38,659 nucleotides of DNA from Candidatus Accumulibacter contiguus (lineage in GTDB: Bacteria; Pseudomonadota; Gammaproteobacteria; Burkholderiales; Rhodocyclaceae). This document shows positions 16,254 to 29,952 of this stretch, in pieces (position 1 is the stretch's first letter; each line of letters starts with the position of its first letter). The stretch is taken from NCBI RefSeq assembly GCF_012940005.1, contig NZ_SPMX01000037.1, positions 1-38,659 of the forward strand. Direction: 5' to 3'. The notes below the pieces were generated by a model, which worked only from the letters and a program-made list of their open reading frames with translations, was not told where the DNA came from and did no database searches. The translations under genes were made by a program, and so were the position numbers.

Positions 16254-18257
16254 TCAGAACTCCAAGGGGTCGACTTCCAGGTGCCAGCGTAGCCGGGATG
16301 GCGCCCTGATGGCTTCGAGCTGGGTCACCCAGTGGGCGAGGAAGCGCTGCAAGGCTCGCCGTGATGGCGACTCGACCAGCAACTGTGCACGTTCGAGACT
16401 GGCGCGACGGGACAGGCGCATCGGCACCGGATCGTAAAAGATCACTTGTAGATCTTCGTCGGACACCGGCTGGGCACGAGCGCTGGCGAGGAAGCCCAGT
16501 GCGTCAGCCATCCGTGGAGATTCCGCACGCAGCATGGCCTGATGGGCATAGGGCGGGAAGCCGGCCTGCTGTCGCTCCTTGAGCTGCATGGCGGCGAAAG
16601 CCGGATAGTCATGCCGGATCAGCGCGGCGTAGAGCGGATGTTCGGGAAACTGTGTCTGCAGCAGCACTTCGCCTGGCCGGTCGGCACGGCCGGCGCGCCC
16701 GGCCACCTGCATCAACTGTGCGAACAGACGCTCCGGGGCGCGCCAGTCTGCGGCGAACAGGGCGGCATCCGGGGCGATCGCACCGACCAGCGTGAGCTTC
16801 GGGAAGTCATGGCCCTTGGCCAGCATCTGCGTGCCAACCAGGATGTCAGCCTCGCCCCCATGGATTCTCGCCAGCAGGACTTCCCATTGTTTGCGGCTGC
16901 GCGCCGAATCACGATCGACACGCAGGATGCGTGCCTGTGGGAAGCGCTCTGCAAGGACTGCCTCGATCCGTTGCGTACCGCGACCGAAGGCGCTGAGATC
17001 CTGGTTGCCACAGGTCGGGCAAAGCTTTGGGACGCGTGCCTCGAAGCCGCAATGGTGGCAGCGCAGACAGCGGTCGGCGAGATGCAGAACCAGGTTGGCG
17101 GCGCAGCGATGGCAATGTGAAGTCCAGCCGCAGGCCGCGCAGGCCAGGACCGGTGCGTAGCCGCGCCGGTTGAGGAAAACCAGACTCTGTTCGGCACGCA
17201 CCAGACGTTGCTCGATGGCCAGCAGCAGGGCTCCGGAGAGTCCATCCTGCAACTTGTCGAAGCGCGTATCGATACACCGCAGCAGGGGCAGGCAGGCACC
17301 CGCGAAGGCCCGCTCCCGCAGCGAAAGAAGCCGATAGCGCCCGCTCCCGTCAACGCCCTGGGCATTGGCCCAACTCTCGAGTGAAGGAGTCGCCGAACCA
17401 AGGACAATCAGGATGCCACTATCGTGAGCGCGGAAGACGGCCAGGTCACGCGCCGAATAGCGAATGCCGTCCTGTTGTTTGAACGACGAGTCATGCTCTT
17501 CATCGACGATGATCAGGCCAAGCTCGGGCAAGGGTGTGAATACCGCCAGGCGGGTGCCGAGGACGATACGTGCCTCGCCAGTCAGTGCGGCACGCCAGTT
17601 GCGGCTACGCGCAGCCTCACCCAACTCGCTGTGCAGGCTGACCAGCCCGGCATTTGGAAAACGAGCCGTGACCCGGGCTTCGAGTTGTGGCGTCAGGTTG
17701 ATTTCCGGTACCAGCAGGAGCGACTGTTGCCCCACCGCCAGGCAGCGTTCGATCAGGCGGAGATAGACTTCGGTCTTGCCGCTGCCGGTGACGCCGTGCA
17801 ATAGGTAGGCGCGGGCGTTACCTGCAGCTATCGACGTCAGCACAGCTTCCTGTTCGCAGGTCAGCAGCGGCGCTGGCTGCGCCGGCACGTCCACGATGCG
17901 CTGCCGAAGCGGCCGAGGTTTCGGTGGTGCCAGCGCGCGTAGTCCGGCCGGCAGGGTAGACAGCATCACCTGCCCAAGCGGCGCGTGATAATAGGCCGCG
18001 CAAAACTTGGTCAGGCGAAACCAGGCGGCGGGCAATGGCGGCAGCTCGCGAAGAATGCTTTCGATCGGTTTGAGCTGTGCAAGCGGAATGTCCGTATCGG
18101 TAGCCAACTCAACGAGGATACCGATCTTGTGGCGTTGACCGAAGGGTACACGAACCCGACAGCCGATGTCCGCCACCGACATCCGCTCTCCCTCGGGAAC
18201 CCGGTAGTCGAAGAATCGGCGAAGCGGCACGTCTAGGGCGACGCGGGCAATCTGCAT
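16254..18257 (-). CDS. priA: primosomal replication helicase PriA
   Basis: PriA restarts stalled replication forks by loading the replisome at forks and D-loops. 667 residues, somewhat shorter than E. coli PriA (732). Seen in order: the N-terminal 3'-DNA-binding domain, Walker A GVTGSGKT (155-162), Walker B DEEH (252-255), the motif III region LGSATPSLES, a zinc-binding insert with CAACGWTSHCHRC, CLRCHHCG and CPTCG cysteines, then helicase motifs including VGTQMLAKGHDFP and QVAGRAGR. ATG 18257 opens MQIARVALDVPL, the normal start. Upstream on its strand lies the DnaA-box-like cluster and then hemE. Confidence 0.95.
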   Translation of the reverse strand: MQIARVALDVPLRRFFDYRVPEGERMSVADIGCRVRVPFGQRHKIGILVELATDTDIPLAQLKPIESILRELPPLPAAWFRLTKFCAAYYHAPLGQVMLSTLPAGLRALAPPKPRPLRQRIVDVPAQPAPLLTCEQEAVLTSIAAGNARAYLLHGVTGSGKTEVYLRLIERCLAVGQQSLLLVPEINLTPQLEARVTARFPNAGLVSLHSELGEAARSRNWRAALTGEARIVLGTRLAVFTPLPELGLIIVDEEHDSSFKQQDGIRYSARDLAVFRAHDSGILIVLGSATPSLESWANAQGVDGSGRYRLLSLRERAFAGACLPLLRCIDTRFDKLQDGLSGALLLAIEQRLVRAEQSLVFLNRRGYAPVLACAACGWTSHCHRCAANLVLHLADRCLRCHHCGFEARVPKLCPTCGNQDLSAFGRGTQRIEAVLAERFPQARILRVDRDSARSRKQWEVLLARIHGGEADILVGTQMLAKGHDFPKLTLVGAIAPDAALFAADWRAPERLFAQLMQVAGRAGRADRPGEVLLQTQFPEHPLYAALIRHDYPAFAAMQLKERQQAGFPPYAHQAMLRAESPRMADALGFLASARAQPVSDEDLQVIFYDPVPMRLSRRASLERAQLLVESPSRRALQRFLAHWVTQLEAIRAPSRLRWHLEVDPLEF

Positions 18258-18322: not shown

Positions 18323-18521
18323 CTATACACAGATCTGTGGATAACTCTGTGGATCAGCTTGCCGAAAAGTGGCGCAAAGGCCCTGTTCACAAGGGTTTCC
18401 GGAGATCGCCGGAAAAATAGGCAATTTTTAAAACCTTTTAAATCAATAGGATGGAAATATAGCCATGAGAAGCCACTGGTTTTCAGCAGACGGCGAAAGT
18501 TGTGGCCATTTCTGTGAATAA
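18323..18521. other. DnaA-box cluster with AT-rich tract (candidate origin or DnaA-binding region)
   Basis: In the 284-base gap between hemE and priA there are DnaA-box-like 9-mers (consensus TTATNCACA): CTATACACA at 18323-18331 (one mismatch), TGTGGATAA at 18336-18344 (perfect, - strand), TGTGGATCA at 18348-18356 (one mismatch, - strand), and TGTGAATAA at 18513-18521 (perfect, - strand). A weaker CTGTTCACA lies at 18383-18391. Between them is an AT-rich tract (18413-18446) with the inverted repeat TTTAAAA/TTTTAAA (18427-18442), a possible unwinding element, and a hairpin TTTCCGG/CCGGAAA (18396-18415). No gene is seen. This may be oriC, an auxiliary DnaA site, or a DnaA-controlled priA promoter. 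Confidence 0.55.
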
Positions 18522-18541: not shown

Positions 18542-19619
18542 TTATTCGATTTTTCTACGCAGGAGGCGGCTATGGGTGTGTACCGCATCAACCAGTGCCG
18601 TTACGTTTTCGGGTGGCGTAAACTGGGAAATCCCGTGGCCCAGATTAAACACATGACCGGTGTTGTGCAAACCGTAGCTGTCCAGCACCTGTCTGGCTTC
18701 GGCGGCTACCCTCTCGGGTGAGGCGAAGAGCACTCCAGGATCGAGATTGCCCTGCAAGGCAACCTGGTGACCCACGCGTCGGCGCGCTTCGCCGATGTCG
18801 ATTGTCCAGTCGAGGCCGATCGCATCGCAGCCGATATCGGCGATCGATTCCAGCCACAGGCCCCCCCCCCTTGGTGAACACGATCGACGGAACCCGTGTA
18901 CCTGCCCGCTCGCGGATGAGACTAGCAACGATGCGTTGCAGGTAGGATAACGAGAATTCCTGGTACGCGGCAGCCGAAAGCGAGCCGCCCCAGGAATCGA
19001 ATATCATCACTGCCTGTGCTCCGGACTCGATCTGGGCGTTGAGGTAAGCGCTTACCGCATCGGCAGTGACCGACAGAATGCGATGTAGCAGATCCGGTCG
19101 GTCGTAAAGCATGCCCTTGATGCAGCGGTAATCGCTGCTCGCACCGCCTTCGACCATGTAGCATGCCAGGGTGTAAGGACTTCCGGAAAAGCCGATCAGC
19201 GGCACGGTGTTGTTCAGCGCCCGCCTGATTTCGCTGACGGCATCCATCACATAACGCAGGTGATCCCAGGGGTCTGGTGCAGTCAGGTCGCGGATCGCCC
19301 ATTCCTCGCGCAGCGGACGTTCGAAGCGGGGTCCTTCCCCATCGGTGAAATACAGCCCGAGGCCCATCGCATCGGGCACCGTCAGAATGTCCGAGAAAAG
19401 GATCGCCGCATCGAGATTGTAACGCGCGAGTGGCTGCAGGGTCACCTCGCAAGCCATGGCAGGGTTCTTGCACAACTGCAGAAAGCTGCCGGCACGCCGA
19501 CGCGTTTCGCAGTACTCTGGCAGATAGCGGCCCGCCTGTCGCATCAGCCAGACCGGCGTATGTTCGGTCGGTTCCTTGAGCAGGGCGCGCAGGAAAGTAT
19601 CGTTGCAGGGTCGGGTCAC
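18542..19619 (-). CDS. hemE: uroporphyrinogen decarboxylase HemE (frameshifted at a G10 run)
   Basis: HemE decarboxylates uroporphyrinogen III to coproporphyrinogen III in heme synthesis. The first ~240 residues are intact: [15 protein letters not shown], the [16 protein letters not shown] block and IFDSWGG. The frame breaks in ten C at 18861-18870 (ten G on the coding strand). With nine G the reading goes from VFTKGGG into [18 protein letters not shown] and ends normally at 18542, giving 358 residues, as in the family. As written the protein would lose its last third, including conserved substrate-site residues. HemE should be essential for a heme-using cell, so a sequencing error is the likeliest cause. 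GTG 19619 is preceded by GGAG at 7-8 bases. trkH ends 59 bases upstream on the same strand. Confidence 0.88.
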
Positions 19620-29936: not shown

Positions 29937-29952
29937 TGTTTCACGTGAAACA
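29937..29952. promoter_or_regulatory. parS site (ParB-binding palindrome)
   Basis: TGTTTCACGTGAAACA is a perfect 16-base palindrome and an exact match to the conserved bacterial parS sequence recognised by ParB/Spo0J for chromosome segregation. It lies in the gap between the convergent nuclease and htpX genes. Confidence 0.9.

Follow-up and report, generated by a model that had tools for sequence, protein, structure and literature searches.

What is a cluster of DnaA boxes doing in the gene-free gap between hemE and priA of Candidatus Accumulibacter contiguus? A preliminary description of this DNA had offered two answers, a true chromosomal origin (oriC) or a site that titrates or reactivates DnaA. 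The origin half of that alternative is not supported, given the GC skew of several relatives and a copy of the element in a Methylopumilus-like genome (G148), and the reactivating half fits, since the number, spacing and orientation of the boxes and the placement of the IHF site match those of E. coli DARS (DnaA-reactivating sequence) loci. Judged from sequence, the hemE-priA element is probably (about 0.6) a non-coding DnaA-regulatory locus of the DARS type without a conserved Fis site. The assignment is built on the geometry and conservation of the boxes, the position of the IHF consensus and the finding that several relatives have no skew switch there.

The element and its surroundings

The window, i.e., the whole stretch of DNA that was analysed (38,659 nucleotides), is contig C71 of a 167-contig, 5.02 Mb draft, with dnaA on another contig (C58). 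The closest priA relatives among named genome contigs belong to Accumulibacter MAGs (78% and 74%). The gap runs from the hemE stop to the priA start, and both genes are on the minus strand (Table 1). All the boxes that had been reported there were recovered, namely two perfect ones, two with one mismatch and a weaker one (CTGTTCACA, two mismatches), which lies between the strict boxes of the cluster. The cluster is genuine and exceeds chance expectation: the window contains 14 sites differing from TTATNCACA at no more than one base, four of them inside 199 bp, and in 300 dinucleotide shuffles the maximum number of boxes per 199 bp was one (189 times), two (106 times), three (5 times) or four (0 times). 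The AT-rich tract was likewise recovered, with a minimum of 24% GC over 50 bp at 18411 that ties with a stretch at about 306-331 for the lowest value in the window. Tract and candidate IHF-type site coincide; the latter is weak in the window, with two mismatches to the consensus TAAnnnnTTGATW, and has one mismatch to WATCAANNNNTTR when read on the opposite strand.

Table 1. Features of the hemE-priA element, its neighbours and the second core.
Feature	Position	Strand	Description
priA	16254..18257	-	downstream neighbour
Whole element	18323..18521	-	in priA direction: box A, IHF-type site/AT tract, boxes III, II, I
DnaA box I	18323..18331	+	CTATACACA, one mismatch, inverted to II, 13 bp start to start
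DnaA box II	18336..18344	-	TTATCCACA, perfect
DnaA box III	18348..18356	-	TGATCCACA, one mismatch, oriented as II, 12 bp start to start
AT-rich tract	18411..18465	n/a	around the IHF-type site, ends approximate
Candidate IHF-type site	18441..18453	-	CATCCTATTGATT, -109 from box II
Distal DnaA box A	18513..18521	-	TTATTCACA, perfect, 177 bp before box II
hemE	18542..19619	-	upstream neighbour, in two frames
Second DARS-type core	G000:C47:50307-50341 (L252 1501-1535)		uvrD/quinone oxidoreductase gap (names read from translations)

The hemE frame is broken (18542-18928) around a run of C at 18861-18870; in G272, a complete genome from the same genus, its two parts fall into a single frame, so that an assembly or sequencing slip is likely. 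The 13-bp spacing of boxes I and II is also found in G272, which makes such a slip unlikely for the spacing itself; in another Accumulibacter locus (L010) it is 14 bp. Two parS matches, at 29937 (perfect) and 37308 (one mismatch), lie 11.6 and 19 kb from the element, in agreement with the preliminary description. They are the only ones with at most one mismatch across the 5.02 Mb draft, suggesting an origin-proximal region. In two complete genomes of the genus, dnaA was not found within 2 kb of either record end. Concerning the proteins that could act here, the window's genome encodes IHF-alpha (150.5 bits, over the cut-off) and a 104-aa open frame with a Fis-type helix-turn-helix.

Conservation and core geometry

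A priA protein query led to 80 loci, mostly from Betaproteobacteria and some from Gammaproteobacteria, two of which (L028, L051) were left out for want of a priA start. An element was called when a same-direction pair of boxes A and II, each with at most one mismatch and 160-199 bp apart, lay upstream of priA. Such a pair is present in 52 of the 78 loci with a placed priA start, which together with the window gives 53 elements. The preliminary description had named non-conserved boxes as one half of what would speak against it, and that half fails, because the boxes are conserved. The pair was not found in the remaining 26 of the 78 loci; two of these (L071, L073) have at most 100 bp of upstream DNA, some (L011, L087) have the core elsewhere or without the pair, and others, e.g., L014, L015 and L027, show no such core in the stretch examined. 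Read in the direction of priA, box A (mostly TTATGCACA) typically comes first, followed by an AT-rich region containing a TAAGTCATTGATTTA-like word and then by the core, ATCCACA-AAG-TTATCCACA-GNNNN-TGTGGATAA or similar. The distances between boxes A and II are 171-180 and 186-191, plus one of 197; the two groups differ by roughly one helical turn, which a dependence on helical phase would predict. Within the order, 159 of 250 genomes contain the pattern TTATNCACA-N(160-186)-TTATCCACA, and the backward control pattern has a match in G168 only, among the matches listed. In two genomes the pattern appears twice within approximately 470 bp in a tandem-like doubling (G019:C1:5094463 and 5094928; G160:C24:156315 and 156784), and in three others (G021, G137, G261) pairs of it are 1.0-1.4 kb apart.

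The 53 elements were selected by boxes A and II alone, and offsets from -60 to +60 around box II were then scanned. Apart from box II itself, the scan peaks most strongly for a direct box at -12 (on average 6.28 of 8 matches) and for an inverted one at +14 (4.64), against a background of 2.01 (sd 0.62). The direct box reaches at least six matches in 48/53 elements. The inverted box I does so in 25/53 at exactly +14 and in 29/53 at +13 to +15, and has fewer than six matches over that range in the other 24. The commonest spacing of boxes I and II among the relatives is 14, the E. coli DARS value, and that of the window is 13. Additionally, the IHF consensus with at most one mismatch lies between box A and the core in 36/53 elements, versus 6.6 expected from shuffling, and 32 of these 36 place it at -107 to -111 on one strand. 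A conserved Fis site was not found: the exact Fis consensus occurs in 15/53 elements versus 9.1 expected from shuffling, with a small cluster at -77 to -79, which is between the IHF site and the core and not beyond the IHF site.

A sequence profile of the core (R1) was built from the 53 priA-locus elements, betaproteobacterial and some gammaproteobacterial. In the window's own genome the window core comes first among the 14 places listed (26.1 bits, E = 2.4e-5), a rank that is not independent because this core is among the profile sequences. The second place (22.1 bits, E = 4.8e-4) is a further DARS-type core in the gap downstream of uvrD, where no IHF consensus was seen. Of the same-genus genomes, G272 carries both sites (uvrD locus L264) with the same neighbours; G278 has the hemE-priA element with a box I that is not clear, and the other stretch examined there is not next to uvrD. 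R1 matches with E ≤ 0.01 were obtained in 60 of the 61 genomes of the relatives set, own genome included. Across the window's class, the only class searched, 203 of 232 genomes have a match with E ≤ 0.001, most of them outside its order, and 29 have none; these E-values are rough and some of the genomes may be sources of profile sequences. The best-listed matches in the class mostly span nearly the whole core, inverted box included. GTDB places the betaproteobacteria within the Gammaproteobacteria. Scores alone do not choose the kind of site: R1 gives 20.4 bits to boxes 7-2 of E. coli datA, 19.5 to DARS1, 14.2 to the DARS2 core and 14.5 to a lone box in the window genome's own rpmH-dnaA gap, so that datA exceeds DARS1 and the DARS2 core does no better than the lone box. 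The DARS-type cores adjoin genes of DNA repair or restart, i.e., mutH, uvrB, priA and uvrD (L248, L249, the window and L252), which may be chance.

The origin question and other readings

GC skew was sampled in 11 relatives, and in the window's own draft it was followed within the window. The element lies clearly inside one arm in five relatives and probably in two; three are undecided, and in one the element is near the switch. Specifically, skew does not change sign across the element in Paenalcaligenes (G002), G214, G222, G017 and G148; G188 and G198 show the same less strongly. The switch coincides with dnaA in G222 and is close to it in G148 and G002, and G198 behaves likewise by weaker samples. 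In G144, from the window's family, the skew is negative up to 2.38 Mb, weak or mixed at 2.43-2.66 Mb and positive from 20 kb, so that the skew does not clearly set the element (2.464 Mb) apart from dnaA, which opens the record. Skew is weak in Rubrivivax (G003, one of 20 stretches being all N) and in G164. In Noviherbaspirillum (G001) negative values give way to mixed or positive ones between 420 and 486 kb, with the priA element at about 494 kb, and the sample at dnaA (3.096 Mb), close to zero, has negative ones on either side. In G017, sampled over 1.16-1.40 Mb, negative skew flanks dnaA (1.2815 Mb) and a value close to zero follows at 1.38 Mb, so in this genome the switch may lie away from dnaA.

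The preliminary description had proposed a check by genome-wide skew; sampled in relatives, the skew puts the element away from a switch in five clearly and two probably, and near one in Noviherbaspirillum, with three undecided. A denser cluster of strict DnaA boxes at dnaA, which would have told against that description, was not found at the dnaA loci of 14 genomes, a result in its favour. These genomes are mostly Betaproteobacteria (L001, L090-L102), and in approximately 1.5 kb on either side of dnaA they have at most four boxes with one mismatch or fewer per 250 bp, 13 of the 14 having only one or two. The distance between the element and dnaA ranges from about 23 kb (G043 and G084) to 1.4 Mb (G198) and about 1.85 Mb (G214), suggesting that the site may originally lie close to the origin and be carried away from it in certain lineages with its arrangement intact. 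In one family the pattern matches a different stretch, not near priA (G226:C1:1431854, G177:C109:88486, G119:C1:183443), which by eye contains more DnaA-box-like words and may be the actual origin in that family.

As an oriC, the site would have DnaA assemble on the boxes and melt the AT-rich tract. A DnaA-box cluster beside such a tract is indeed present, an arrangement not specific to oriC, and the tract flanked by boxes, the parS sites 11-19 kb away and the lack of a denser strict cluster at the 14 dnaA loci all count in favour of this reading; the sparse boxes at dnaA are the reason why we keep a small share of probability for it. Two relatives also point this way, Noviherbaspirillum and Cupriavidus metallidurans CHR1, the latter with a possible element. 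For CHR1, a published account (PMC2864759) places the skew transition 90 kb from dnaA, just past a 213-nt stretch with three perfect boxes. Box A to box I would measure 213 nt at a 190-bp spacing, which is found in two genomes, and the CHR1 stretch may be the same element. Against an origin stand the constant skew sign across the element in five relatives, more weakly in two, with the switch at or near dnaA in G222, G148 and G002. In the window itself the skew keeps one sign over the gap (-0.016 left, -0.002 right), where priA and hemE are co-directional. The AT tract is moreover the position of the IHF-type site. We therefore rejected oriC as the general role, on the skew in relatives, and the tract as a DNA unwinding element, on its coincidence with that site. 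Less probable than an origin is passive titration of DnaA with no catalytic role, which would suit perfect boxes often near dnaA and for which the abstract of PMC12371093 can be cited; titration alone does not require the fixed 12/14 spacing, the inverted box I or the phased IHF site. The lowest probability goes to a DnaA-controlled priA promoter. The element is upstream of priA in 57 of the 77 genomes among those listed for both, with box II 33-309 bp before the start, a distance that varies widely and speaks against a promoter. Furthermore, in three genomes of one genus (G148, G225, G201) the pattern is hundreds of kb from priA. In the Methylopumilus-like G148 a complete element, with the core TTATCCACA-AAG-TTATCCACA and its inverted partner, a perfect IHF consensus and box A, sits between pyrG and tatD (names read from translations) at 0.816 Mb of 1.284 Mb, far from both priA (1.256 Mb) and dnaA (base 4). 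In this lineage the element is independent of priA, hemE and dnaA, and a priA promoter element was discarded on this ground.

A datA-like site, on which IHF would loop same-direction boxes together so that ATP-DnaA is hydrolysed or titrated, is unlikely, yet it is the rival to which we give the most weight. Boxes A, III and II have one direction with the IHF-type site in between, and the R1 score of datA, as given above, fits as well. E. coli datA has a head-to-tail pair 12 bp apart and a same-direction third box 160-180 bp away, 162 bp on in our reading of the boxes as 7, 2 and 3, similar to the 163-167 that separate box A from box III at the most frequent spacings. Like the element, datA has one IHF site according to a review (PMC5742627), from which its placement is taken, because our scan found no IHF consensus with at most one mismatch between boxes 2 and 3. 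The order, however, is reversed: datA runs boxes 7 and 2, IHF site, box 3 in one direction, i.e., pair, IHF, single box, whereas the element runs single box, IHF, pair. The inverted box of datA is 12 from box 3, whereas in the element family the inverted peak is 14 from box II, as in DARS.

Proposed mechanism and comparison with known systems

Under the preferred DARS-type reading, ADP-DnaA would bind the three-box core, with boxes II and I facing each other and III head-to-tail with II. A bend made by IHF at the AT-rich site, some 109 bp from box II, would fold box A, with its own DnaA, onto the core. Contact between head-to-head DnaA AAA+ domains on the II-I pair would then release ADP, and the apo-DnaA would leave and bind ATP, raising the ATP-DnaA pool before the next initiation. 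We infer the binding of DnaA and IHF, the nucleotide exchange, its timing and a role for box A that replaces the DARS2 Fis region from the arrangement of the sites. If this function holds, control of initiation timing through DnaA nucleotide exchange becomes testable in many species, and programs that look for origins by clustered DnaA boxes could wrongly report such sites as oriC.

In alphaproteobacteria such as Caulobacter, oriC lies beside hemE. The element shares with this type of origin the hemE neighbour, DnaA boxes and an AT-rich tract, but differs in that the skew switch is away from it in several relatives, and the parallel is probably only a shared neighbour. Concerning DARS, PMC5742627 defines it by an equal spacing of boxes I-III and by an orientation of box I opposite to that of the other two. 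This core is found family-wide (12/14 bp), with 12 and 13 in the window itself. E. coli DARS1 (bioD-uvrB gap, MG1655) has the same core, with boxes at 160 (+), 174 (-) and 186 (-), i.e., 14 inverted and 12 direct, and the betaproteobacterial profile matches it over core positions 8-38. Unlike the betaproteobacterial elements, the DARS1 gap contains no IHF consensus with at most one mismatch; it also has other neighbour genes and lacks a box in the position of A.

E. coli DARS2 (rppH-mutH gap) has its core at 158/172/184, with the spacing and orientation of the betaproteobacterial elements. The order core-IBS-FBS in PMC4245941 indicates that this would be the published DARS2 core, which the same paper describes as conserved among gammaproteobacteria related to E. 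coli. In the literature searched, mostly open-access, we found neither a betaproteobacterial DARS-type site nor one at hemE-priA described. The IHF consensus (one mismatch) occurs in the DARS2 gap at -99 and -83 from box II, the two sites being 3 bp apart, in agreement with what the literature gives for IBS1-2, and the Fis consensus is at -137. As in DARS2, the IHF site of the elements is on the box III side (36/53, the window copy having two mismatches) and on the same strand, at -107 to -111 compared with -99, approximately one helical turn further out. The distal box differs, since box A is direct at about -177 whereas the DARS2 gap has an inverted perfect box at -197, and the neighbour genes differ from those of both E. 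coli DARS loci. DARS2 requires Fis at FBS2-3 (PMC4245941), whereas the betaproteobacterial elements have no conserved Fis position beyond the IHF site, and for this reason the element is not filed as a member of DARS2. A wider proposal, held tentatively and at rather less than even odds, is that DnaA reactivation of the DARS type is ancestral and nearly universal in Beta- and Gammaproteobacteria. The main betaproteobacterial form would be Fis-independent and usually upstream of priA, with a distal box and one IHF bend replacing the Fis region of DARS2, and a second, core-only copy, downstream of uvrD in Accumulibacter, would act as DARS1.
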